Source of the DNA: Gemmatimonadota bacterium
Lineage (GTDB): Bacteria; Gemmatimonadota; Gemmatimonadetes; Longimicrobiales; Gaopeijiaceae
Assembly (NCBI GenBank): GCA_030827315.1
Contig: JAURER010000003.1
Location: forward strand, 62,001-126,000
DNA: 64,000 nucleotides
Direction of reading: 5' to 3'
The position numbers and the translations under genes are program-made. Below the pieces are notes generated by a model. It saw nothing but the letters and a program-made list of their open reading frames with translations, was not told the DNA's origin and ran no database searches. Below are positions 42,891-56,883 of this stretch, in pieces. Each line of letters starts with the position of its first letter. Position 1 is the stretch's first letter.

Positions 42891-44480
42891 TCATGACTCG
42901 AAGCTCACCGCGAACGCTTCGTAGACCCGGTCGAGAAACGCTCCGCCGTAGCGCGTAAGGAAGTAGAGGGGGCTCTGGACCCTTTCGGCCGGCTTGCCGA
43001 GCGGATACAGGTGCAGCTGTGCCTTCTCGAGCTGTGCGAGCGTGATCTCGCTCTCGCGCCTGACCGCCGCGGTCACCTTCTTCTCGACGTCCTCCAGGGT
43101 GGCGAACGCCTGGCTGCGGAAGTGCTGCACCGACCCCTTGAGGGTGGGGTCGACGGCGGCCGCCGCGCTCTGGAGCTCGCTCACCCCGGTCCCGAGCGCG
43201 CCCCGCAGCTTCCCGATGGCCGCACGCACGTCGTCGGGCACCTCCTCGCGCGCGATCTCCGACGCGACCTCGTGGAACGGCCGTGCGAGGCGCGACAGCT
43301 CCATGTGGAACTTGTCGAGCACCTTTCGGATCTTGCTCTCCACGACGGTCGCCGACCAGCGCGGAAAGACGATCGGCATCTCGATTCCGTGTGCCTCGAA
43401 GTACCCGCGCACCTGCGCGAAGTAGGCGATCTCGCCCGGGCCACCCACGTACGCCAGGGTCGGAAAGACAGCGCTCTCCACGACCGGTCGGAAGAGCACG
43501 TTCGGGCTGAGCACGCGGGAATCGCCCTCGACGCGCGCCCGGATCTGGGCGGCGTCGAGCTCCTCGCCCGAGCTTCGCAGCCGGAAGCCGTCCCCCTCGC
43601 GGTACAGGCGCTCCCGACCGGCGGCGCCCTCCAGGAAGAGATTCACGCCGCCCTCGAGGATCGGGACCTGGAGGTCGTAGCCCTGGAGCTCGAGCTGCCG
43701 GCCGGTGGCCTGGAGTACCTCCTCGAAGCGCTCGCACCCGTCGAGCTCCGCGAGCAGAAGCTCCCTGGAACGGTCCTTGACCACGGGGTCGGCCGCGTCG
43801 GTGAAGTACACCCCGAAGCGCCCGAGCACCGCCTGCATGAGCGTGTGGAAGCCGCCCGGCAGCGTGCTCCCCGCCCCGTACCCATCGCGCAGCAGCGAGA
43901 CGAACTCCACGCTGAAGTCTGTGTCCGGAAGCACCGAGCAGAACGCAGCGAGGACCTCGTCCGCCTGCCGGGGTAGCGAGATCCGGTGCAACGCCGGCGA
44001 GCGATTCGGGTCCGGCGGGTCGATCTCGAAACGCCGCAGCTCGTTGTCCACCGTGATCACGTCCGCGTGGTTCGCTTCCGCCCAGTCATGGTCGTCCGAA
44101 GCCACCCAGAAGACGGGCAGGACCGGCTTGCCCAAGCGCTCCTCGACAGCCTCGGCCAGCCGCACTGCGCTCAGTGCCTTGTAGACACTGTAGAGCGGGC
44201 CGCCGTAGAGGCCAGGCTGCTGTCCGGTCGTCACCACGTACCCGCCCTCGTCGACGAAACGCCGCAGACGCGACGGATCGGCCCCCGGGGGCACCGTAAG
44301 CGCCGCGGCCGCACGCTCCCGGGCGGCCCGGTCGAAGCGCGTGTCGACCTCCGCCGCCTTGGCGACGAATGAAGCGATCTCGTCGAAACGACGGCCGTAG
44401 AAGTCCGCGGCAGCGCCTTCGCCCGCCAGGTAGTCCTGCACCACCCGGGCGCCCGAGGGGCGCGAAACGATCAACTCCAT
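42891..44480 (-). CDS. bshC: Bacillithiol biosynthesis cysteine-adding enzyme BshC
   Basis: A 529-residue protein of family length (about 540). 'VVTTGQQPGLYGGPLYSVYKALSAVRLA' and 'PVFWVASDDHDWAEANH' form the Rossmann-like active region of BshC, and the C-terminal 150 residues are a long coiled coil ('SEITLAQLEKAQLHLYP'). BshC adds cysteine to glucosaminyl-malate, the last step to the thiol bacillithiol. BshA and BshB are not in this window. It starts 1 nt after the rlmH stop, so the two genes are cotranscribed. Confidence 0.93.
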   Translation of the reverse strand: MELIVSRPSGARVVQDYLAGEGAAADFYGRRFDEIASFVAKAAEVDTRFDRAARERAAAALTVPPGADPSRLRRFVDEGGYVVTTGQQPGLYGGPLYSVYKALSAVRLAEAVEERLGKPVLPVFWVASDDHDWAEANHADVITVDNELRRFEIDPPDPNRSPALHRISLPRQADEVLAAFCSVLPDTDFSVEFVSLLRDGYGAGSTLPGGFHTLMQAVLGRFGVYFTDAADPVVKDRSRELLLAELDGCERFEEVLQATGRQLELQGYDLQVPILEGGVNLFLEGAAGRERLYREGDGFRLRSSGEELDAAQIRARVEGDSRVLSPNVLFRPVVESAVFPTLAYVGGPGEIAYFAQVRGYFEAHGIEMPIVFPRWSATVVESKIRKVLDKFHMELSRLARPFHEVASEIAREEVPDDVRAAIGKLRGALGTGVSELQSAAAAVDPTLKGSVQHFRSQAFATLEDVEKKVTAAVRRESEITLAQLEKAQLHLYPLGKPAERVQSPLYFLTRYGGAFLDRVYEAFAVSFES

Positions 44481-44481
44481 C

Positions 44482-44952
44482 TCATCCCTTGTGATACGGT
44501 TCCGCGCGCAGGATCGTGCCCGCGCGGTAGAGCTGCTCGGCCAATATGAGCCGCGCCATCTCGTGTGGCAGCGTCATCGCGGAGAGGGACAGCGCACGGC
44601 TGGCCCGCGCGAGCACCTCGTCGCCGAGTCCGTACGCCCCCCCGACCACGAACGCCACCCCGGCCGAGGAACGGATCGCGTGCCGTTCGAGATACCGCGC
44701 GAGCTCCCTGGAGTCCATCCCCCGACCCTCGCGCGTCAGGGCGACGACCTCGAGTTCGGCCGGGATCCGGGCCAGGAGACGCTCCGCTTCCGCTCCCTTC
44801 ACCGCGGCGGGACCGGCGTCGCGCCCGGGCCCGCCCGCGGCCACCTCCACGACCTCCAGCTTCCAGTAGCGTCCGGCGCGCATCTCGTACTCCGCCACCG
44901 CCCCCGCGACTTCACCCCGGACGCGGCCGACCACCACCACCAGCACCCTCAT
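44482..44952 (-). CDS. rlmH: 23S rRNA pseudouridine-1915 N3-methyltransferase
   Basis: A 156-residue SPOUT-class methyltransferase starting at ATG 44952. The knotted C-terminal half is clear: 'ALTREGRGMDSRELARYLE', 'VAFVVGGAYGLGDEVL', 'LSLSAMTLPHEMARLILAEQLYRA' and the terminal 'YHKG', all classic RlmH. It methylates pseudouridine 1915 in helix 69 of 23S rRNA on the assembled ribosome. Its ATG overlaps the lpxK stop by 4 nt. Confidence 0.96.
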   Translation of the reverse strand: MRVLVVVVGRVRGEVAGAVAEYEMRAGRYWKLEVVEVAAGGPGRDAGPAAVKGAEAERLLARIPAELEVVALTREGRGMDSRELARYLERHAIRSSAGVAFVVGGAYGLGDEVLARASRALSLSAMTLPHEMARLILAEQLYRAGTILRAEPYHKG

Positions 44953-46037
44953 GAGCCTACCGCCGCCACGAGCGCCGCGAGTTCGTCTTCCCCCCAGTCC
45001 CAGTCGAGCCGCTGCCGAAGCACCCAGGCGTCGCCCAGGACCTCGGCATGGCCGACGAGCTTCACGGCATCCTTCTCCGTCACGACGATCGGCCGGTCGC
45101 CGGCCAAGGCCCGCGCCTCGCGCGCCTCTCCGGCCGTGAACTCGTGGTGGTCGGGACGGGCCAGCAGATCGACCGGACCCTGCAGGAGCGCCTGCAGGTA
45201 CGCTCGGAGCGTGTCGGGTCGGGCGATGCCGGTGAGGACGAGGACCCCCCGGCTCACATCGAACGGCGGGAGGGCCGAAGCCGCGTCGCGCGGCGCGGCG
45301 GACGACCGGATTCCATGTCCCGAGCCCCGGCGCGCCCCTTCGCGCCATTCCGCGAGCCGCACGAGACCGTCGGCCGTGAGGTGCACGCTGGCCACCACGG
45401 CAACGGCCGCGACCCCCGGCATCGCGGCGACGGCCGCGGCCAGCGCCCGGGCGGCATCCGCCGAGGCGGCCCGGCGAGTCAGCACGATCGCGTCGGCGCG
45501 CGCGAGCGCCGCGGGCGGCTCGCGATACGGGCCGCACGGGAGAACGGGCGCCGGAAAGGGATCATCCGCGCTGAGGAGGACGAGGTCGAGGTCGCGGGCC
45601 AGGCTCCGGTGCTGGAAGCCGTCATCGAGGACCACGGTGTCGGCACCCTCATCGGCGGCGCGGCGTGCCCCCCGCACGCGGTCCGCCTCGACGACGACGG
45701 GTACGTCGGGGTTCCATACGCCGTGCAGAAGCGCCTCGTCGCGCCCGTACCCTCGGAGCACCAGCGCGGGCTTCGCTCCCCGGCTCGAGAGCGCCCGCGC
45801 GACCCAGGCCGCCACGGGGGTCTTGCCCGTCCCTCCGACGGCCAGGTTGCCGACCGATACGACCCGGAGTCCCTCGACCGCGCGCCCCCCGGCACGGTCG
45901 AAGCGGCGCGCTCTCCTGGCGGTCTCCAGCGCCCAGAGCCAGGACAGTGGCGCCAGCAGCAGCCGGAGAAGGAGGCCGGGTAACCCGTACGCCCCCGCCC
46001 ACCACCGCCGGGCGAAGCCCTGCAGGCGCGCCCTCAC
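44949..46037 (-). CDS. lpxK: Tetraacyldisaccharide 4'-kinase
   Basis: A 362-residue membrane-associated kinase starting at GTG 46037 (4-nt overlap with the acyltransferase gene). The Walker A is 'GNLAVGGTGKTPVAAWVARAL', a family trademark, followed by 'VLRGYGRDE', 'VVLDDGFQHRSLARDLDLVL' and 'PCGPYREPP'. LpxK phosphorylates the 4' position of the lipid A disaccharide made by LpxB, giving lipid IVA. The N-terminal 35 residues form the membrane-binding helix. Confidence 0.95.
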   Translation of the reverse strand: MRARLQGFARRWWAGAYGLPGLLLRLLLAPLSWLWALETARRARRFDRAGGRAVEGLRVVSVGNLAVGGTGKTPVAAWVARALSSRGAKPALVLRGYGRDEALLHGVWNPDVPVVVEADRVRGARRAADEGADTVVLDDGFQHRSLARDLDLVLLSADDPFPAPVLPCGPYREPPAALARADAIVLTRRAASADAARALAAAVAAMPGVAAVAVVASVHLTADGLVRLAEWREGARRGSGHGIRSSAAPRDAASALPPFDVSRGVLVLTGIARPDTLRAYLQALLQGPVDLLARPDHHEFTAGEAREARALAGDRPIVVTEKDAVKLVGHAEVLGDAWVLRQRLDWDWGEDELAALVAAVGS

Positions 46038-46660
46038 GCTTCACCGGCCCGGTCGAGCGCGGCCCCGATCTCGCGGGCCATCCGCTCGAGCTCCTCGCGC
46101 CCGGCGTCGCGGGGCACGAGGGTCGGCGGAAGGTACTCGAGGGTCACGCGCGCGAAGGGTCGAGGCACGAGAAACCGGTCCCAGCTGTCGAAGTGCCAGG
46201 CCGAGGAGACCCTGACCGCGATCGGTACCACGGGCAGGCCGGCCATCTGAGCGGCGGCGAGCGCCCCGGGCTTGAACTCGTGCCGCGGTCCTCGCGGTCC
46301 GTCGGGCGTCACGGCCACGGCATGACCCTGGCGGGCCGCCCTGACCAGGCCCTTGAGCCCCTTGCGCCCCCCACGGGTGCTGGAGCCCCGCGCGGTTCCG
46401 AACCCGTTCCGCTCCAGGATTCGGGCGATGTACTCCCCGTCGCCGTGCTCGCTCGCGAGCGCCACGATGCCCTCATCCCGGTGGTAATGGACGACGGGCA
46501 GCATGTGCCCGTGCCAGACCACGATCATCACCGGCCGGCCCGCGTCGCGGTAGCGCCGATAGTGCTCCGCGCCCACGCGCGTGAGCCGCGTCGTCAGGAA
46601 GAGGCCCCGTACGAACCCCGCCCCGAGCAGGCCTGCGACCCGGAAGCGGACCTCGCTCAC
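46034..46660 (-). CDS. DUF374 lysophospholipid-acyltransferase-like protein
   Basis: A 208-residue protein starting at GTG 46660 and overlapping both lpxB and lpxK by 4 nt. 'IVVWHGHMLPVVHYHRDEGI' holds the acyltransferase His region, and 'TARGSSTRGGRKGLKGLVRAARQG' and 'VTPDGPRGPRHEFKPGAL' are conserved DUF374 blocks. The family belongs to the LPLAT superfamily with PlsC and LpxL. Its place between lpxB and lpxK makes a late lipid A acylation role likely, in place of LpxL/LpxM, but this has not been shown by anything in the sequence. Confidence 0.85.
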   Translation of the reverse strand: MSEVRFRVAGLLGAGFVRGLFLTTRLTRVGAEHYRRYRDAGRPVMIVVWHGHMLPVVHYHRDEGIVALASEHGDGEYIARILERNGFGTARGSSTRGGRKGLKGLVRAARQGHAVAVTPDGPRGPRHEFKPGALAAAQMAGLPVVPIAVRVSSAWHFDSWDRFLVPRPFARVTLEYLPPTLVPRDAGREELERMAREIGAALDRAGEA

Positions 46661-47826
46661 GTCGCCCCCTCGGCCAAGCCGCTGCCATCGGCCCCGAAGA
46701 GCTCGTCCGCGAGATCCGCGACCCTTCCGGCGGCACCCGGCTCGCCGAGAAGCGCGCGCACGCGGGTCAGCGCGGCCACCTGTTCCCCGCGGACCGTGCT
46801 CCGCGGATCGAGGAGGTCGAGGAGCACGGGCGCCACCGTTTCGGCACGAAGTTCGTCCTGGAGGAATTCCGGGACAACCGGGGCATCCGCGACCAGATTG
46901 GGCAGTCCCACGTACCCGATCTTCACGAGTCGCTTCGCGAGCCAGAACGTGACCGGACTCGTCCGGTACCCGATGGCGAAGGGCGTGCCCTCGAGGACGG
47001 TCTCGAGCGTCGATGTCCCCGACTTCACGAGCGCGGCCGTCGCATGGCGCTGGAGGGCCCGTGTGTCGGTGACCACCGGGTACCCGAGATCGCGGTACAG
47101 GCCGACGGCGAGTGTTTCCGAGCGGGAGAAGACCGGCTGCACGTCGGGCCGCCGCGCCACGACGGCGGCTGCGATCTCGCGAAAGGGCTCCAGATGACGC
47201 GCGAGCTCCTGCGCGCGCGAGCCCGGGAGCATCGCCAGGATCGGTCTCTCGGGGTCGAGCCCCCAACGGGCGCGAAAGGCGTCGGCCTGGGGCACGTCGT
47301 CCGCTCGGTCGAGCAGGGGGTGCCCGACGTACCGCGCGTCCACGCCGAACCGGGCCAGGAAGCCGGCCTCGAACGGCAGGATCACCGCCACCCGGTCCGC
47401 CACCCGCGCGAGCGTGCGGGCCCTGCCCTGCTTCCACGCCCAGACCTGGGGCGCGATGTAGTACAGCACCGGAATACCGCGCTCGTGTGCGGCGCGCGCC
47501 ATGCGCATGTTGAACCCGGGATAGTCCACGAGCACGACGAGCGCAGGCCGGTCCTCGTCCATCCGTCGCAGGACCTGCGCCGCGAGGCGGCGGAAGAACG
47601 GCAGCCGGGGCAGAACCTCGGCGAAGCCCATGACGGCCAGTTGATCGAGCCCCGCCAGCAGCTCGACCCCCTGCTCCGCCATCCGCGGACCGCCGGTTCC
47701 CAGCATACGAACGCCCGGGTGCCGTGTCCGTAGCTCCGCGGCGAACGCGGCGGCGTGGTGATCGCCAGAAGCTTCTCCGGCCAGAACCAGCACCGTGCGA
47801 CGCCCCCCGGAGCCGACCCGGGTCAC
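46657..47826 (-). CDS. lpxB: Lipid-A-disaccharide synthase
   Basis: A 389-residue GT-B enzyme starting at GTG 47826. 'VLAGEASGDHHAAAFAAEL' at the N-terminus, 'DYPGFNMRMARAAHERGIPVLYYIAPQVWAWKQGR' and 'AMLPGSRAQELARHLEPF' are LpxB signatures; 'VKSGTSTLETVLEGTPFAIGYR' binds UDP-sugar. It joins lipid X and UDP-diacylglucosamine to the tetraacyl disaccharide. A 44-residue membrane peptide gene lies 4 nt upstream. Confidence 0.96.
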   Translation of the reverse strand: MTRVGSGGRRTVLVLAGEASGDHHAAAFAAELRTRHPGVRMLGTGGPRMAEQGVELLAGLDQLAVMGFAEVLPRLPFFRRLAAQVLRRMDEDRPALVVLVDYPGFNMRMARAAHERGIPVLYYIAPQVWAWKQGRARTLARVADRVAVILPFEAGFLARFGVDARYVGHPLLDRADDVPQADAFRARWGLDPERPILAMLPGSRAQELARHLEPFREIAAAVVARRPDVQPVFSRSETLAVGLYRDLGYPVVTDTRALQRHATAALVKSGTSTLETVLEGTPFAIGYRTSPVTFWLAKRLVKIGYVGLPNLVADAPVVPEFLQDELRAETVAPVLLDLLDPRSTVRGEQVAALTRVRALLGEPGAAGRVADLADELFGADGSGLAEGAT

Positions 47827-47830
47827 GCGG

Positions 47831-47965
47831 TCAGAACGCCCAGCCGAGGTACCAGATCACCACCAGCGTGAGAGCGAGGAGAACGACGAGCTTGCCCCGC
47901 GGCATGCCCTTCCTTGCGTCCATCCAGTTCTTCTTGCGGCGTTTTCGCGTTCGTATGAGGGACAT
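47831..47965 (-). CDS. 44-residue single-pass membrane peptide inside the lpx operon
   Basis: A small gene from ATG 47965 to TGA 47831. The product has a very basic N-terminus (about ten Lys/Arg in the first 25 residues, including 'RTRKRRKKNWMD'), one hydrophobic helix ('LVVLLALTLVVIWYLGWAF') and then stops. This gives an inside N-terminus and a C-terminus in or across the inner membrane. It lies 48 nt after lpxA and 4 nt before lpxB, both on the same strand, so it is cotranscribed with them. It could stabilise or localise a Lpx enzyme; the function is unknown. The size makes it easy to miss. Confidence 0.65.
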   Translation of the reverse strand: MSLIRTRKRRKKNWMDARKGMPRGKLVVLLALTLVVIWYLGWAF

Positions 47966-48013
47966 TCCCTGCTCCCCGCCGCCCCGAGGCGACCGATGAA
48001 GGCTGGCCCGAGA

Positions 48014-48817
48014 TTAGGTCGTGATCCCGCGCTCGCTCGCGCGGATGAACTGAATGAGGTGCCGCACTTCCGGGACGCCCGTGATCTCCTCCTCGGCCCG
48101 GTCGAGCGCCCTCGAGAGGTTCACGTCGCTGCGGAAGAGCATGCTGTACGCCCGCTTGAGCGCTTTGCGGACCTCGTCGGAGAAGCCCCGCCGCTCGAGA
48201 CCGACCGAGTTCAGGCCGTACAGCCTGGGCGGCGTGCCCGCCGCACGGCAGTACGGCGGCACGTCCTGCGAGACCCGGGAGCCGCCCCCGATGAAGGCGT
48301 GTGCGCCGATGCGCACGAACTGATGCACGGGCGTCACGCCCCCGATGATCACCCAGTCCTCCACGAGCACGTGCCCGGCCAGGTTCACCGAGTTGGCCAG
48401 GATGACATGGTTGCCGAGCTCGCAGTCGTGGGCCACGTGCGTATACGCCATCAGGAGGCAGTCGCTGCCGATGACGGTGTGGCCCGACGCCGACGTCCCG
48501 CGATTCAGCGTCGCGAACTCGCGGACGACGGTGCGATCTCCGATCTCGAGTAGCGCTCGCTCGCCCTTGAACTTGAGGTCCTGGGGATCGCTGCCGAGAA
48601 CCGCCCCATTGGCGAGGAAGCAGTCCTCGCCGATGTGGGTGTCCTGCTGGATGTAGACGCGCGGACCGATCTCGGTACCGTCTCCCACAACGACCCCGGG
48701 CCCGATCAGCGCCCACGGGCCCACCTTCACCCCGGTGCCGAGCTCGGCCCCCGGGTCCACGATCGCCGTGGGATGAACCGTGGTCTCACCCCGCGCCTTC
48801 AGCAAAATTTCTGCCAT
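48014..48817 (-). CDS. lpxA: Acyl-ACP--UDP-N-acetylglucosamine O-acyltransferase
   Basis: A 267-residue left-handed beta-helix enzyme (usual length about 262). Hexapeptide repeats begin at about residue 14 ('TVHPTAIVDPGAELGTGVKVG'). 'MAYTHVAHDCELGNHVILAN' contains catalytic His130, and 'HQFVRIGAHAFIGGGSRVSQDVPPY' is the acyl-chain-measuring region. It does the first step of lipid A synthesis. It follows the lpxC-fabZ gene by 1 nt. Confidence 0.96.
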   Translation of the reverse strand: MAEILLKARGETTVHPTAIVDPGAELGTGVKVGPWALIGPGVVVGDGTEIGPRVYIQQDTHIGEDCFLANGAVLGSDPQDLKFKGERALLEIGDRTVVREFATLNRGTSASGHTVIGSDCLLMAYTHVAHDCELGNHVILANSVNLAGHVLVEDWVIIGGVTPVHQFVRIGAHAFIGGGSRVSQDVPPYCRAAGTPPRLYGLNSVGLERRGFSDEVRKALKRAYSMLFRSDVNLSRALDRAEEEITGVPEVRHLIQFIRASERGITT

Positions 48818-48818
48818 G

Positions 48819-50108
48819 TCATCTGTCCATGATCCGGGCCTTGAACTCGGCCTCTGCGACTACCTGTCCGTCGACCAGACCCCTCCCCGCGATGCTGCAC
48901 ACCTGGCGACGGAACTGGAGCACCTGGAGCTCGAAGACGAGCGTGTCGCCCGGCGTGACGGGCCGCCGGAACTTCACGTTGTCCATGGTCATGAAGTACA
49001 CGACCTTGCTCTCGGGGTCGTCCACCTGGTCCATGAGGAGGAGGCCGCCGCACTGAGCCATCGCCTCCAAGATGAGCACCCCGGGCATGATCGGGTGCCC
49101 CGGATAGTGCCCCTGGAAGTAGGGCTCGTTGATCGTGACGTTCTTGATGCCCACGATGCTCTCGCCGGGCACGAAGTCGATGATCCGGTCCACCAGCAGC
49201 ATCGGGTATCGATGCGGCAGGAAGTCCATGATCCTCGCGGTGTCGGCTACCGCCTTGCCCCCGCGGCGCGCGTGCGTCCGAATGCGGCGGGCCAGCTCCA
49301 CGTTGCCCGCGTGACTCGGTCGTTCGGCGATCACGTGCGCCTGGAGTCGCGCGCCCAGAAGCGCGAGGTCCCCGACCACGTCCCCGATCTTGTGCCGAAG
49401 GAACTCGTCGTCGAAGCGCAGGCCCCCGTCGTTCATGACCCCGTCGTCGTCGATGACGATGGCGTTGTCGAGCGAGGCGCCGAGGGCGAGCCCGCGCGCG
49501 TGCAGCGCCTCGGCGTCCGCGCGGAAACCGAACGTGCGCGCGGCGGCCAGTTCCGAGCGAAATACGTCCTCGCGGACGTGGAACGATCCGTACCGCCGCC
49601 CGATCACCGGATGCGAGAAGTCGATCGTGGCCGAGACGCACAGGCCGTTCGCTGAAGGCGTGGCGACGTAGGTCGCACCGGCATGGCCCGCGGCTTCGAC
49701 GACGCCCGAGACCGAGATGACGGTGGCCTCCTCTTTCTGCTCCACCGCGCCCGCCTCGTCCAGCGCGCGGACGTAGTCTCGAAAGGAGCCGTCCCGAATC
49801 GGGATCTCCGGCCCGTCGATGTCCACCGTCACGTTGTCGATTTCGAGTCCGGCCAGCGCGGCCATGACATGCTCGATCGTGAGGACCCGCGCCTCGCCGA
49901 CGCCGACCGTCGTGCCGAGTTCGGTGCCGACCACGCAATCGATCGTCGCCGGGATCTCCGGATGCCCTTCGAGGTCGACGCGGCGGAAGCGGATCCCCGC
50001 GCCCGGTCCGGCCGGGCGGAAGGTCAACGAAGCGCTCTGCCCGGAGTGGAGGCCGACCCCCTCGAGCCTGGCCTCGCGGGCCAACGTACGTTGGAAGACG
50101 GCGGTCAT
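48819..50108 (-). CDS. lpxC-fabZ: Fused LpxC deacetylase / FabZ dehydratase
   Basis: A 429-residue fusion. Residues 1-285 are LpxC (UDP-3-O-acyl-GlcNAc deacetylase): zinc ligands His80, His239 and Asp243, and catalytic Glu79 and His266. Residues 290-429 are FabZ (3-hydroxyacyl-ACP dehydratase): catalytic His334 in 'YFQGHYPGHP' and Glu348 in 'VLILEAMAQ'. Both active sites are intact. One polypeptide therefore links the committed step of lipid A synthesis to fatty-acid elongation, which compete for 3-hydroxyacyl-ACP. The same fusion is known in Bacteroidetes and relatives. It starts 83 nt after lpxD. Confidence 0.96.
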   Translation of the reverse strand: MTAVFQRTLAREARLEGVGLHSGQSASLTFRPAGPGAGIRFRRVDLEGHPEIPATIDCVVGTELGTTVGVGEARVLTIEHVMAALAGLEIDNVTVDIDGPEIPIRDGSFRDYVRALDEAGAVEQKEEATVISVSGVVEAAGHAGATYVATPSANGLCVSATIDFSHPVIGRRYGSFHVREDVFRSELAAARTFGFRADAEALHARGLALGASLDNAIVIDDDGVMNDGGLRFDDEFLRHKIGDVVGDLALLGARLQAHVIAERPSHAGNVELARRIRTHARRGGKAVADTARIMDFLPHRYPMLLVDRIIDFVPGESIVGIKNVTINEPYFQGHYPGHPIMPGVLILEAMAQCGGLLLMDQVDDPESKVVYFMTMDNVKFRRPVTPGDTLVFELQVLQFRRQVCSIAGRGLVDGQVVAEAEFKARIMDR

Positions 50109-50191
50109 GGGAAGGAGCGGCGGGCAACGGTTGACGTCATGCGTGTTCCGACAGCCGGAAGGTAATCCGAAGTGTGGCCGTCACACACCGG

Positions 50192-51232
50192 TCAGCCCTC
50201 CTCGCCGAGGCGCTTTACGTCCGCCTCGAGCCGGCGGATGCGTTCGAGGAGCCTGGGAATCCGGCCCACGTTCGCCTCCTTTACGAGCGCCTCACGGTGC
50301 GGACGCGCCGGAAAACCCGACACGGTCTCGCCGGCCGGTACGTCCCGCGTGACACCCGCCTGCACCGCGACACGCGCGCCGTCACCGATCTCGACCTGGT
50401 TGCGTACGCCGGCCTGTCCGCCGAGCCACACGCCCTTGCCGATGCGCGTGGAGCCGGCCACTCCGACCATGGCGGCAACGAGCGACATCGCGCCGATCCG
50501 GACGTTGTGGGCCAGATGGACCAGGTTGTCGATCTTCGTGCCCGTTCCCACCCGCGTGTCGCCCAGTGAGCCGCGGTCGATCGCGGCATTGGCTCCGATC
50601 TCGACGCCATCCTCGATCACGCAGCGCCCCACCTGAGGGATCTTCGCGTGCCGGCCGTCCATGAAGGTGTACCCGAAGCCGTCGGCGCCGAGGCGCGTGC
50701 CGCTATGCACGACGACGTCCGCCCCGATCACGGTGTCGTGGTAGGTGACGACGTGCGGATGGAGCCGTGTGCGCGCGCCGATCGTCGTGCCCTGCCCGAT
50801 CACGCAGTGGGCCCCGATCCTGCACCCGTCACCGACCCGGACTCCGCTCTCGAGGACCGCGTACGGCCCCACGTCGACCCCTGCCCCGAGTTCGACCTCG
50901 CGCCCCAGCACCGCCGTGGGATGGATCGTCGGATGCCATCCGGGTTCCGGGTGGAAGTGCTCGAGGAGCGCCCGTAGCGCAGGATAGGCGTCCTCGACGA
51001 CGACCCTCGAAGCCGCGTCGGGCAACGCCGTCTCGAGCTCGGTGGAAACGAGGAAGGCGCCGGCTTGGGAGTCCGCGGCGTACTTCACGTACCTGCGGGC
51101 GGCGAGGAAGCCGATGCGCGAGGGTTCAGCCTCGTCGACCGGTGCCACTCCGTCGATGATCAGGGCCCCTTCGCCGACGAGGCGACCCCCGACCAGGTCG
51201 GCGATCGCCTCGAGGCTCAACGGGCCGGCCAT
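50192..51232 (-). CDS. lpxD: UDP-3-O-(3-hydroxyacyl)glucosamine N-acyltransferase
   Basis: A 346-residue protein. The N-terminal uridine-binding domain has '[21 protein letters not shown]'; the beta-helix starts near residue 105 ('[21 protein letters not shown]'), with '[11 protein letters not shown]' and '[25 protein letters not shown]' conserved; catalytic His is in '[11 protein letters not shown]'. The C-terminal helix for ACP binding is present ('[15 protein letters not shown]'). It does the third step of lipid A synthesis. It lies 25 nt downstream of ompH. Confidence 0.96.
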
Positions 51233-51257
51233 CGGGTCGGAATCCGTTTCGGGGGCT

Positions 51258-51794
51258 CTAAAGGGCTCCGCCCTGACCGGCGCCGGTGGACTGCAGCCGG
51301 GTGATCACTTCCTGGGTCAGGTCGAGCGCGGGGTCGGCCGACACGATGGAGCCGGCGGCCGCATCGAGGATCAGCGAGTACGCCCCCTCCTCGCGGATCG
51401 TCTCGATGATCTGGGTGATGTTGTCCATCACGGGCTGGATCAGCGCCGCGCGCCGCTGGTTGGCAACGTCCTGGAGCTGGTTCGCCCGCTGCTGGTACTG
51501 CTGAAACTTCTGCTGGAGCTGCTGCTCGCGGTTCGACCGGGCTTCTGGCGAGAGGGTGAGCTGCTGCTGCTGGAGCGCGGTCTCCATGTTCTGGAGCTCG
51601 GTCTCGAGCTGGGCAATCTCCGCCTGATATCCCTGCATTTCCTGGTCGAACTGGGCCTGGGCGGCCGCAGCGCCAGGCGCCTGAAGGAGGATCTCCTGCG
51701 AATTGATATAGGCGATCTTGAGCGTCTGCGCCTCGACGGCTCCGGCCGTGAGCAGGAAGGCCAGCGCCATCAGCGCAAAGGAGGTGCGTCGCAT
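51258..51794 (-). CDS. skp: OmpH/Skp-family periplasmic chaperone
   Basis: A 178-residue protein starting at ATG 51794. A signal peptide (1-22, ending 'VEAQ') is followed by the short beta region '[17 protein letters not shown]', a long Gln-rich coiled coil (about 45-130), and a C-terminal strand/helix segment ('[22 protein letters not shown]'). Skp trimers hold unfolded outer-membrane proteins after Sec export. It is between bamA and lpxD, the order found in many Gram-negative genomes. Confidence 0.92.
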
Positions 51795-51955
51795 GGTGTG
51801 AAGCTCCGTTTCGTGTCGTACGGCCGCACTCTCGTATTCCGCCCGAGACCGGCATGTTCCCGTGTTCCGCCCACCGCGCCATGCGGAGGCGGGGCTACAG
51901 CCGTCAAATGTCGATTCGAACGGGCCGGAAGTACAGTCCGCCGGCGTTCGTCCGA

Positions 51956-54394
51956 CTACATCCCGCCCATCCGGAAGTGGAGCTGCCAGCCCGGCTCCGT
52001 TCGATCGAAGCCGTAGGCGTAGTCGAGCCCGAGAGGCCCGAACGGCGTCACGATCTGCATACCCACGCCCGCGCCGCGATAAAGGCGCTGCGGGTCGAAC
52101 TGACCCGGATCGCGCCACACGTTGCCCGCATCGTAGAAGACGTGTACGCCCAGCTGCCCTCCGAGTCGCACCGCGTATTCGGCGGTCAGGCTGAAGAAGG
52201 CGTCGCCGAGCCGATCGATGTCGTTGATGTCGGACGAACGCTCCGGGAAGAAACCACGCGGGGTGATCGTGGTCTCGTCGTAACCGCGAAGATTCTGCCC
52301 GAATTGCACGCCGCCCATCCAGAAGCGGTCGAAGGGAAAGGCGCCTGCGTCGCCGAAGATGGCCCCGCCGCGCAGGGTGAGCCCGAGGGCGAACTGGACC
52401 CCCCCGCTGCCTGTCGAGGCGTCACCACCGAGCTGGCCCACGGGCACCCACCAGGTCCCGTCCGCGAGCAGGCGCGTGAAGTCACCGTCGCCGCCCAGGA
52501 AGCCTCCGTTCTGCTCCACCGTCAGGTTCTGACGCGAACCGACGGTGGGGAAGATCGGGTGGTTGAGCGTCTGACGCGTGAGCGAGGAGGACAGCTGGCT
52601 CTGGACCCCGGGCGGGCGGCCGAAGAGCGAGTTGTCGTCCACGTCGTTGAAGAGCTCGTACTTCGTCCGGGAGATGGCATAGCCCACGAACACACGGGTG
52701 TACTGCGAGCCCCGCCACGGGAAGCCGAGCCGGACGCTGCTCCCGAGGCGCCGGCGACGACCGGTCGCGAACTGGTAGAAGCGGTCTCGCGAGTTGAACA
52801 GCGAGATCGTCCCGGACGTGCGCGTCTGCAGGAGCGCCGGGTCCGTGTAGGACATTTCGAAGGCGTTGATGAACCGCCCGAAGTCCCAGCGCAGCGTCCC
52901 GGCCTTGGCCTGCCCGAACAGGTTCGGCTGCTCGTAGCCCACGAAGCCCGAGAGTCCGACCCCACCCCCGATCGAGGTTCCGAAGTTGACCGAGCCCGTC
53001 TGCTTCTCGACGACGTTGAACGTGATGTCGACGTCGCCGTTGTCGAGCGGCACGACCTCAGGGAACGGAAGGGGCGACTCGAAGAAACCGAGCGCCGAGA
53101 TGTTCTGGTACGTCTGCAGGAGGCGCTGCTGGCTGTATACGTCGCCGGGCACGATGAACAACTGATTCCGGATCACCCACTCATAGGTGTACTCGTTACC
53201 AGCGATGTTCACGCGGTTCACGACGGCGGGCTGCCCCTCGACGATCTGCCAGGTCGCGTCCACCGCCGGCGCGTCGCCCTCCTCGCCCTCGCGGATGTTC
53301 ACGACCGGGTTCACCTGAGCATACAGGTAGCCCTCGTTCCGGTAGCGGTCCTGCACCGACTGGATGGCCCCGTTGAACGCCTCGGCGTCGAAGACCTCAC
53401 CCTCCTCGTTGGCGGAACCGCCGCCACCCGAGAGCCCGAGCGCGCCGAGGAGCCCGCCTCCACCCGTGGAGCGGAACATCTCCTCGAGCTCTTCGTCCTC
53501 GAAAACCGTGTTGCCTTCGATGGCAAAGGCCCCGAGTCGGTACTGGGGGCCCTCGTCGACGGTGACCTCGAGGCGCGCCTTCCCGGATTCGGGATCGACG
53601 ATGAGCGTGTCGCCGATCACCTGAAAGTCGAGGAAGCCTCGCGTCCGGTACAGCCTCGGAAGATTGGCCGCGAGATCCTCCCGGAACCCGGCCTGCGTGT
53701 ACGACCCCGTGCGGAACCACCAGAATCCCTCGGCGCGCGTGGACATCGCACCCTGAAGGTCCGCAGCGTCGATGAAGTCGTTGCCGTAAAAGACCACATC
53801 GGCCACGGTCACCCGCTGTCCCTCCGAGACCTCGAGAATCAGCTCGATCTCGTTCGCCACACCTTCGACGGGCTCGAACCGCTCGTTCACGTACGCGAAG
53901 GGAATGCCCTCCCCGGCGAGCTCCTGACGTATGTACTCCTTCGCGTCGAGAATCCGCTGCCGGTTGAGTGGAAAGCCGGAGTTGAGGCCGGTCGTGTCAC
54001 GCACCTCCCTGGCGGAGACGTTCTGGAGCCCCTCGATGCCCACGCGCCGCACGATCGGGGCCTCGACGACCTCGATCGTCAGCACGTAGGGCTGAGACGG
54101 GGTTCCACCTCGCGCCCGGACCACCACGTCGTCGAACTGACCCGTTGCGAGCAGCTCCTTGGTGCCCCGCTGCACCGCCCGGTAGGTGATCTCCTGACCG
54201 GGCTGCACGGCGAACAGCGCGAGGATCGCCTGTGCCTGCACTCTGGAGTTGCCCACGACCTCGAGAGAGTCGACGCGCACGGGCGCCTGGGCCGAGGCTG
54301 CGGGCGCCAGGACGCCTGCGCAAACGCCGAGGAAGGCCGCCGCGACGGCGACCTTTCCCAGCCCCGAGAGAATTTCCGCGACTCGCTGGCTCAC
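51956..54394 (-). CDS. bamA: Outer membrane protein assembly factor BamA
   Basis: An 812-residue Omp85 protein. A signal peptide (about 1-35), five POTRA domains (about 40-112, 115-192, 195-283, 286-387, 390-463) and a 16-strand barrel (about 468-812). The L6 loop motif is 'LRGYDE'. POTRA4 carries a Gly-rich insertion at 310-332. The C-terminus is '...HFRMGGM' and so lacks the usual terminal Phe or Trp of the beta-signal. Start is GTG 54394, which overlaps the clpC stop by 4 nt. BamA is the core of the machine that inserts outer-membrane proteins. Confidence 0.95.
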
Positions 54395-56883
54395 GTCTTG
54401 GTCGCCGACTCCGCACGCAGCGTGAGCCCCGCGCCTTGGGGGTCGAGGTCGACCTCGATCTCGTCGCCAGCGCTGAACTCCGCCTGGAGGATTTTTTCGG
54501 AGAGCGGGTCCTCCAGATGGCGCTGGATCGCCCGCTTGAGTGGCCTCGCGCCGAACTTCTCGTCGTACCCCTCGTCGACGAGGAAGTCGATCGCCGGGTC
54601 GGTGAAGCGGAGCGTGATCTCTTCCTCGGCCAGACGCGCCCGAACGTCTTCCATGAGAATGTGGATGATCTCCCCGATCTCGGCCTTCGTGAGCGGGTGG
54701 AACACGATCGTGTCGTCGACCCGGTTCAGAAACTCGGGGTTGAAGGCGCGCTCGATCTCCTGGGACACCTTGTCCTTCATGATCCGGTAGCTCGACTTCG
54801 GGTCGGCCGTCTGGAAGCCGAGCCCCCCGCCCTTGCTGATGTCACGGGCGCCGAGGTTCGACGTCATGATGAGCACGGTGTTCTTGAAGTCGATCACGCG
54901 GCCGTAGTTGTCCGTCAGATGGCCCTCGTCGAGAACCTGCAGCAGGATGTTGAATACGTCGGGGTGCGCCTTCTCGATCTCGTCGAGAAGCACCACGGAG
55001 TAGGGGCGGCGACGCACGGCCTTCGTGAGGGCCCCGGAATCCTCGTAGCCGACGTATCCAGGAGGCGCGCCGATGAGGCGCGACACCGAGAACTTCTCCA
55101 TGTACTCGCTCATGTCGACGCGGATCAGCGCGTCCCGGTCGTCGAAGAGGAACTCTGCGAGCGCCCGCGCCAGTTCCGTCTTCCCCACGCCCGTCGGGCC
55201 CGAGAAGATGAACGAGCCGATCGGGCGCCGCGGGTCCTTGAGACCGGCGCGACTGCGGCGGATCGCACGCGAGATCGCAACGATCGCGTCGTGCTGGCCG
55301 ACGATGCGCTTGTGGAGCTCGTCTTCCATGTGGACAAGCCGCTCGGACTCCGTCTGCCGGATCCTCTGCACAGGGATCCCGGTCCATCGACCGACGATGA
55401 AGGCGATGTCCTCGGTCGTGAGCCGGGGGCGGTGCTGCTTGCGCTCCTCCTCCCACGCAGCCTGCCGGTCGCGGATCTGCTGGCCGAACTCGCGCTCCTC
55501 GTCGCGCAGCTCGGCGGCGCGCTCGAAGTCCTGGTCTCCGATCGCCTCCTCCTTGCGGCGGGCGATCTGGGCGAGCTGGTCTTTGAGCTCGTCCACGTCC
55601 GCCGGCGGCACCTGGCTCGCGATACGGGCGCGGGCACCGGCCTCGTCGATGACGTCGATGGCCTTGTCGGGGAGGAAGCGGTCGGTGATGTAGCGGTCGG
55701 AGAGGCGAGCGGCCTGCTCGAGGGCCTCGTCGGGGATGGCCACCCGGTGGTGATCCTCGTAGTGGCCGCGCAGGCCCTTGAGGATCTCGACGGTCTCCTC
55801 GACCGCCGGGGGATCCACGATCACCGGTTGGAAGCGACGCTCGAGGGCGCCGTCCTTCTCGATGTACTTCCGGTACTCGTTGAGCGTCGACGCGCCGATG
55901 CACTGCAGCTCGCCGCGCGCGAGCGCGGGCTTGAGCATATTCGAGGCGTCGATGGCGCCCTCGGCCGCACCAGCGCCAACCAGCGTGTGGAGCTCGTCGA
56001 TGAACAGGATGACCGTCTTGGTCTGCTGGATCTCGTTCATGACCGCCTTGAGGCGCTCCTCGAACTGACCCCGGTACTTGGTGCCGGCGATCACGGCCGC
56101 CATGTCGAGGGCAAGGACGCGGTGGTCCTTGATCGCCTCTGTGACATTGCCGTTGGCGATGAGCTGAGCCAGCCCCTCGACGATGGCGGTCTTGCCGACG
56201 CCGGGCTCACCGATGAGCACCGGGTTGTTCTTCTTGCGCCGGCACAGGATCTCCACCACGCGCTCGATCTCTTCCGCGCGACCGATGGTGGGATCGAGCT
56301 TGCCCTGGGCCGCGAGCTCGGTGAGGTCGCGGCAGAAGTGGTCCAGAGCAGGAGTCTTGGACTTCTTGTCGCCGGCCTTTCCGGGAGACCCGGTGGTCAC
56401 GGGGTCGGTCGCGCCGGCGATGCCGGCCGGCTCCGAAGGAGAGACCTCGGATCCGAGGACCTTGAGCGTCTCCCCCCGCGCCTCCTCGAGCGTCACGCCG
56501 AGCGAGTTGAGTACCTGAGCGGCGATCCCCTTCTCTTCGCGAAGGAGGCCGAGCAGCAGGTGCTCAGTCCCGACGTACGAGTGGTTGAGGTCGCGGGCTT
56601 CGGCCATCGCGAACTCGAGCACCTTCTTGGCGCGGGACGTATACGGGAGCTCGCCGAGGGCGATGGTCGCCTTGCCTTTCCGCACCGACTCTTCGACCCG
56701 CTCGTGGATCTGGTCGAGATCGACGCTGAGGTTCTGGAGCACGGCCGCGGCCACACCCTCGCCCTCGCGGATCAGCCCGAGCAGGATGTGCTCGGTACCG
56801 ACGTAATCGTGCTGGAGCCGGATGGCCTCTTCGCGGGCCATCGCCAGGACTTTCCGGACTCGGTCGGTGAAGTTGTAGTTCAT
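54391..56883 (-). CDS. clpC: AAA+ unfoldase ClpC
   Basis: An 830-residue class I Hsp100. The N-terminal domain has the double Clp_N repeat ('[20 protein letters not shown]', '[20 protein letters not shown]'). AAA-1 has Walker A '[15 protein letters not shown]' and '[14 protein letters not shown]'. The middle domain includes a UVR-like motif ('[18 protein letters not shown]'). AAA-2 has '[15 protein letters not shown]' and '[15 protein letters not shown]'. It feeds substrates, including arginine-phosphorylated ones, to ClpP. Gene order mcsA-mcsB-clpC matches the Firmicutes ctsR operon, but no CtsR gene is nearby. It starts 6 nt after mcsB. Confidence 0.96.

Follow-up and report, generated by a model that had tools for sequence, protein, structure and literature searches.

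A conserved 44-codon gene between lpxA and lpxB in Gemmatimonadota encodes a predicted membrane peptide and persists in a genus that appears to have lost lipid A genes

A small gene in the gap between lpxA and lpxB

The window analyzed here, a stretch of 64,000 nucleotides, carries a co-directional series of genes on its minus strand, to which all window coordinates below refer. The series opens with a gene for POTRA and Omp85 domains (51956..54394; PF07244 and PF01103) that we take to be bamA, and continues with an OmpH/Skp-like gene (51258..51794; PF03938, 115.1 bits), for which the reading frame and start were chosen in our analysis, lpxD (50192..51232; PF04613, 53.4 bits), an lpxC-fabZ fusion (48819..50108; NF009667, 485.9 bits) and lpxA (48014..48817; TIGR01852, 338.7 bits). 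There follow the small gene that is the subject of this report (47831..47965), lpxB (46657..47826; TIGR00215, 278.8 bits; PF02684), a DUF374 acyltransferase-like gene with an approximate start (46034..46681; PF04028, 94.1 bits), lpxK (44949..46037; PF02606) and a reading frame at 44482..44952 that, from its sequence, is presumably an rlmH-like gene. A scan for promoters and terminators over 44400-54600 found none.

The small gene consists of an ATG start, 44 codons in all and a stop, and its 44-residue product is MSLIRTRKRRKKNWMDARKGMPRGKLVVLLALTLVVIWYLGWAF. It lies 48 nt downstream of lpxA and 4 nt upstream of lpxB on the same strand. An earlier reading of the window made without database searches, which we call the sequence-only reading, had noticed a complete gene in just this place and had assigned it to a lipid A operon; the frame is indeed present in the sequence, and the family matches of the flanking lpxA and lpxB agree with the assignment. 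Upstream of the ATG, at 47972..47976, the motif GGGAG is a possible Shine-Dalgarno element, a call made from the Shine-Dalgarno consensus. In many relatives a Gfo/Idh-type gene that we take to be gnnA-like is found between lpxA and the small gene (for example at L105:1001-2057); it is absent at window positions 47827-48013, which gives a hint of different lipid A sugars. One paper (PMC5644692) describes where gnnA genes lie in other bacteria.

Frames of such size are common in this DNA, with 77 ORFs of 30 aa or longer overlapping positions 43000-53000, and conservation is needed as the deciding criterion. A search of the 121 genomes of the window's own family (f1) found a homologue in 103 of them at E<=1e-3; at E<=10 there were matches in 109, six of which are not credible by their E-values. 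Two further copies, one of 45 aa (G055) and one cut by a contig end (G046), were recognized by reading the DNA. Length is nearly constant: among the 149 copies in the fetched loci, in which some genomes are counted twice, 126 are 44 aa long and 148 fall within 43-48 aa. All 43 aligned sequences share L3, R7, R10 and L26, residue 11 is K or R in all 74 distinct sequences, and the same 74 sequences share an I-W-Y-L motif at codons 37-40 (47846..47857), toward the C-terminal end of the predicted membrane helix, with I37 in 60, W38 in 67, Y39 in 67 and L40 in 72.

Substitution patterns point in the same direction. The sequence-only reading had proposed looking for synonymous-biased substitution in the lpxA-lpxB gap of related genomes, and this is what we observe: the median dN/dS is 0.41 in 33 non-overlapping pairs, 32 of which lie below 1 and one of which reaches 1.18, and it is 0.32 across 566 pairs. 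Medians for the other five frames are 0.96, 1.65, 0.95, 0.53 and 1.47. Since each pair rests on 132 bases and single values are therefore noisy, and since one antisense frame, at 0.53, comes close to the 0.41 of the real frame, we regard the end-to-end conservation of the aligned peptides as the stronger argument for a gene. Given homologues of near-constant length together with purifying selection, these comparisons indicate that the small gene is a genuine protein-coding gene. That it could be a chance ORF gains something from the abundance of similar frames in the window, but homologues across f1, across the phylum and in the genus g101 described below, along with the purifying selection on them, make this a negligible prospect.

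The predicted peptide and its lack of a named family

AlphaFold2, run with 29 aligned sequences, models two helices, at residues 3-18 and 23-43 (mean pLDDT 84.0, pTM 0.38). The first is a predicted basic helix (codons 3-18; 47912..47959): net charge over the first 25 residues has a median of +7.5 and a range of 3 to 11 in 94 sequences. The second is a predicted single membrane helix (codons 23-43; 47837..47899), with Kyte-Doolittle values over residues 25-41 that have a median of 2.49 and a minimum of 1.67 among 94 distinct homologues. Charge, hydropathy and model thus agree with the basic N-terminus and single hydrophobic helix that had been described from the sequence. Under the positive-inside rule the basic N-terminal helix belongs on the cytoplasmic side, and we infer that the gene is translated and that its product sits in the inner membrane with a cytoplasmic N-terminus. 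Conservation shows a weak tendency to be one-sided on the membrane helix, where positions 26, 30, 33, 37 and 40 would form a conserved face (p=0.028 over residues 23-43, p=0.083 over 26-40), and there may be a similar face on the first helix at positions 4, 7, 11, 14 and 18 (p=0.067). Such one-sidedness would fit packing of the helix on a partner, and we take it as a hint of this.

The window peptide matched no NCBIfam family at E<=1 and no Pfam family above its cut-off. Its sole Pfam match at E<=1, PF14007 (YtpI), was rejected as a family assignment because its score of 15.4 bits (E=0.024) falls short of the 29.4-bit cut-off; 3 of 43 aligned members match this family at E<=0.1. Across the same 43 members, the Pfam scan gave ten families at E<=0.1, the best being MgtC (0.0017, in two members), and the best E-value in the NCBIfam scan was 0.014. 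A profile search of the PDB yielded three matches, all of them weak (E 0.0015, 0.68 and 0.69). A literature search, which extended to titles and the opening of abstracts and did not cover subscription papers, found no paper on the peptide. The earlier description of the peptide as unnoticed accords with these searches, and an operon that is usually considered fully understood gains a conserved protein that apparently has no name.

Gene order and distribution in the phylum

Gene order around the peptide was compared for 101 distinct coding sequences drawn from the 149 copies. For 92 of them lpxB is the next gene, 65 copies lying between gnnA and lpxB and 27 between lpxA and lpxB; because some loci were picked around lpxB, the share found beside it is somewhat inflated. 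Of the other nine, two stand between fabZ and nadB, one has lpxA and a DUF374 gene as its neighbours, and six lack a recognized next gene in the stretch. In the median, 28 nt separate the small-gene stop from the codon for residue 11 of LpxB. The copy next to DUF374 belongs to a genome of family f8 (G280; L138:1690-1930), where lpxB is elsewhere in the genome and unmatched in the stretch. Outside g101, the lasting nearness of the small gene to lpxB hints at a connection with the lpx genes. Short gaps to lpxB, and a gnnA frame that at L105 extends beyond the small-gene start, might also suggest a leader-type translational coupler, in which reading of the frame serves the next gene and the peptide itself is irrelevant. 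Amino acids are conserved over the whole length of the peptide, however, also where lpxB is gone, and this makes a mere coupler very improbable.

When 298 genomes of the phylum were searched with a profile, 135 had matches at E<=0.05, and those of about 1e-6 or better fall in families f1, f2, f3, f7, f9 and f11. The last of these represents another class; at each of the four f11 loci read, gnnA and lpxB are separated by a similar small ORF, which is clearly related to the window gene in two of them and weakly in the other two. No such ORF was found at 15 loci of families f4, f5 and f6, which have the order lpxA-gnnA-lpxB with lpxB close after gnnA (lpxB itself was matched in 13 of them and was placed by separate search or region choice in the other two). 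At the one f10 locus read, lpxA directly precedes lpxB and there is no small gene. Weak matches in G160, G324 and G307 were considered as hidden copies in families without the gene and rejected, as there is no lpx match in the stretch and the likeness amounts to a hydrophobic stretch. Two f7 genomes, G361 and G347, matched neither the peptide nor LpxB, and the contig of G361 ends inside lpxC.

Within f1 itself, an intact copy is missing upstream of lpxB in four of the genomes read there, three of genus g38 (G113, G114 and G115) and G073. The latter, a genome of about 1.6 Mb, retains a seven-codon remnant of the small gene, MSLVRVR, followed by an out-of-family frame (L108:1921-2018). Absence of the frame under preserved lpxA-lpxB synteny, which the sequence-only reading had named as the result that would speak against it, does occur, in g38, in G073 and at the f4, f5, f6 and f10 loci that were read, but not in most of f1.

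On a GnnA tree of 68 rows, four presence changes are needed to explain the distribution of the small gene, and 0 of 500 shuffles gave a number as low, with several f3 loci (profile E about 0.0002-0.02) and two f11 loci labelled as present on a partial or weak match. All 15 of the f4, f5 and f6 rows form one group. With f11 taken as the outgroup, the pattern reads as an ancient presence of the gene in the phylum with a few losses and vertical inheritance. A scan of a wider collection with the f1 alignment found 36 loci, all in MAG records, 32 of which have Gemmatimonadota-type titles, including Longimicrobiales and BD2-11. The other four (L169, L172, L174 and L178) contain a close copy of the peptide in records titled as Gammaproteobacteria MAGs, and these are probably mislabelled bins.

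A genus with the peptide and without matched lipid A genes, and possible roles

The six genomes of genus g101 in family f7 (G244, G240, G278, G369, G368 and G367; loci L191, L192, L193, L197, L198 and L199, respectively) are 71-90% complete, and all six have the peptide. LpxB was found in none of the six, a loose first pass giving no candidate. In the three that were searched genome-wide for LpxA, LpxC and LpxK (G240, G244 and G278), there was no match to LpxA or LpxK, and the only trace of LpxC was a C-terminal fragment of 64 positions in G244, which adjoins an assembly gap of 100 bases; the same searches were positive in three control genomes from this family (G202, G301 and G261). The fetched stretches of all six likewise show no match to lpxD, lpxA, gnnA, lpxB, the DUF374 gene or lpxK, all of which are seen in the controls G202 and G362. 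What does remain is fabZ, which adjoins the peptide in 6/6, in an order fabZ-sORF-nadB: nadB is next in 5/6, with no N between fabZ and nadB, and in G369 the contig ends first. Upstream, an OmpH-like gene is present in 4/6 and bamA in 3/6, and in the others contig ends or the gap cut the cluster short; G244 has no bamA match within its fetched stretch. LptD (PF04453) was matched in 0 of 13 genomes, the lpx-positive controls and the window genome being equally without a match. Judging from the missing genes, lipid A synthesis seems to be gone from this cluster in g101, with fabZ and, where visible, bamA and the OmpH-like gene remaining, and it is possible that the genus is an LPS-less diderm lineage within Gemmatimonadota.

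Selection on the peptide continues in this genus. In the 15 pairs of the six genomes dN/dS ranges from 0.02 to 0.44, with 13 at or below 0.22 and dS saturated in some, and the differences between G240 and G278 fall once at first, never at second and 14 times at third codon positions. With dN/dS in this range, the g101 peptide does not look like a decaying leftover. The genus thereby provides a natural test of the lipid A hypothesis, as it shows an element of the cluster that seemingly still serves the cell without lipid A genes.

It had been proposed from the sequence that the peptide tunes LpxB or the acyltransferase. As an account of its whole function this proposal does not hold up, since g101 combines the peptide in 6/6 genomes with LpxB in 0/6, LpxA in 0/3 and purifying selection, and 15 f4, f5 and f6 loci are without the peptide. 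The two genes are thus separable both ways, with the peptide occurring apart from lpxB in g101 and lpxB apart from the peptide in the three families. A gene that served LpxB alone would be expected to decay in g101, and the low dN/dS there leaves such a role unsupported, so we rejected tuning of LpxB as the sole function. A variant in which the peptide is a dedicated regulator or membrane anchor of LpxB (or LpxA) that was re-used in g101 would account for the prevalence of lpxB as the next gene, allowing for how loci were picked, and for the spacing of 4 nt in the window. Against it stand the selected g101 copies, the 15 loci with lpxB and no peptide, and the G280 copy that does not adjoin lpxB, and we consider it improbable. 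Because selection persists in a genus seemingly without the surrounding lipid A genes, the job of the peptide is probably wider than tuning LpxB; in lineages that have lipid A, it may still include a lipid A role.

The reading we prefer, at a probability of roughly one in three, is that the small gene encodes a vertically inherited, single-span inner-membrane protein of the Bam-Lpx cluster that functions without a need for lipid A as a membrane anchor or modulator, our guess for its target being acyl supply through FabZ. According to this model, the basic helix would lie on the cytoplasmic face of the inner membrane, and the conserved face of the membrane helix would dock on a partner membrane protein, giving the peptide its anchoring or modulating role. 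The guessed target would be the supply of acyl chains common to phospholipid and lipid A synthesis, at FabZ and the acyl-ACP branch point. FabZ is suggested because fabZ encodes the lipid enzyme still found beside the peptide once the lpx genes go, and the link is a guess drawn purely from gene order. The families f4, f5 and f6 retain lpxC-fabZ yet have no peptide at the locus, so a link to FabZ could not be an obligate one.

Since bamA and the OmpH-like gene also stay where the contig shows them, their products are comparable candidates for the partner, and a role in outer-membrane assembly is nearly as likely as one with FabZ, which is put ahead by gene order alone. The peptide might accordingly assist the assembly of outer-membrane proteins or some other general machine of the inner membrane, with the BamA/OmpH neighbours, Sec/YidC or an FtsH-type protease as conceivable clients. 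The makeup of the reduced g101 cluster favors such a factor, and large membrane machines are the targets of many known small proteins with a single span; taken as a whole, we rate this explanation as somewhat less likely than the preferred one. In more general terms, and with a confidence slightly short of an even bet, we suspect that the peptide is an undescribed mini-protein with a long history in the phylum, whose place is in the core envelope program of Gemmatimonadota and not in lipid A itself. As one genus kept the peptide beside fabZ when the lipid A genes seemingly disappeared from the cluster, such a protein may connect the inner membrane with the supply of fatty acids or phospholipids, or with outer-membrane assembly, in diderms that have LPS and in diderms that do not. 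The question this raises is what a lipid A operon still supplies once lipid A has been lost.

Two systems of Escherichia coli invite comparison by role. The LapA, LapB and LapD proteins are larger than the 44-residue peptide. As one report describes, FabZ co-purifies with LapB, the LapA/LapB/LapD complex of the inner membrane keeps LPS and phospholipid synthesis in balance, and these inner-membrane components are tied to LpxC amounts (PMC9456370). We take this as a precedent for the guessed FabZ target. The second system is PmrR, a membrane peptide that inhibits the lipid A phosphotransferase LpxT (PMC8129183), and it resembles the Gemmatimonadota peptide in being a membrane peptide tied to lipid A enzymes, the likeness drawn here being one of role. 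Within Gemmatimonadota, another study reports, in a passage without bearing on g101, that Kdo2-lipid A synthesis is common in one order across several habitats (PMC11651109). PmrR differs in its genetic setting, pmrR being divergent from eptA-pmrAB, whereas the Gemmatimonadota peptide persists where the lipid A genes are gone.
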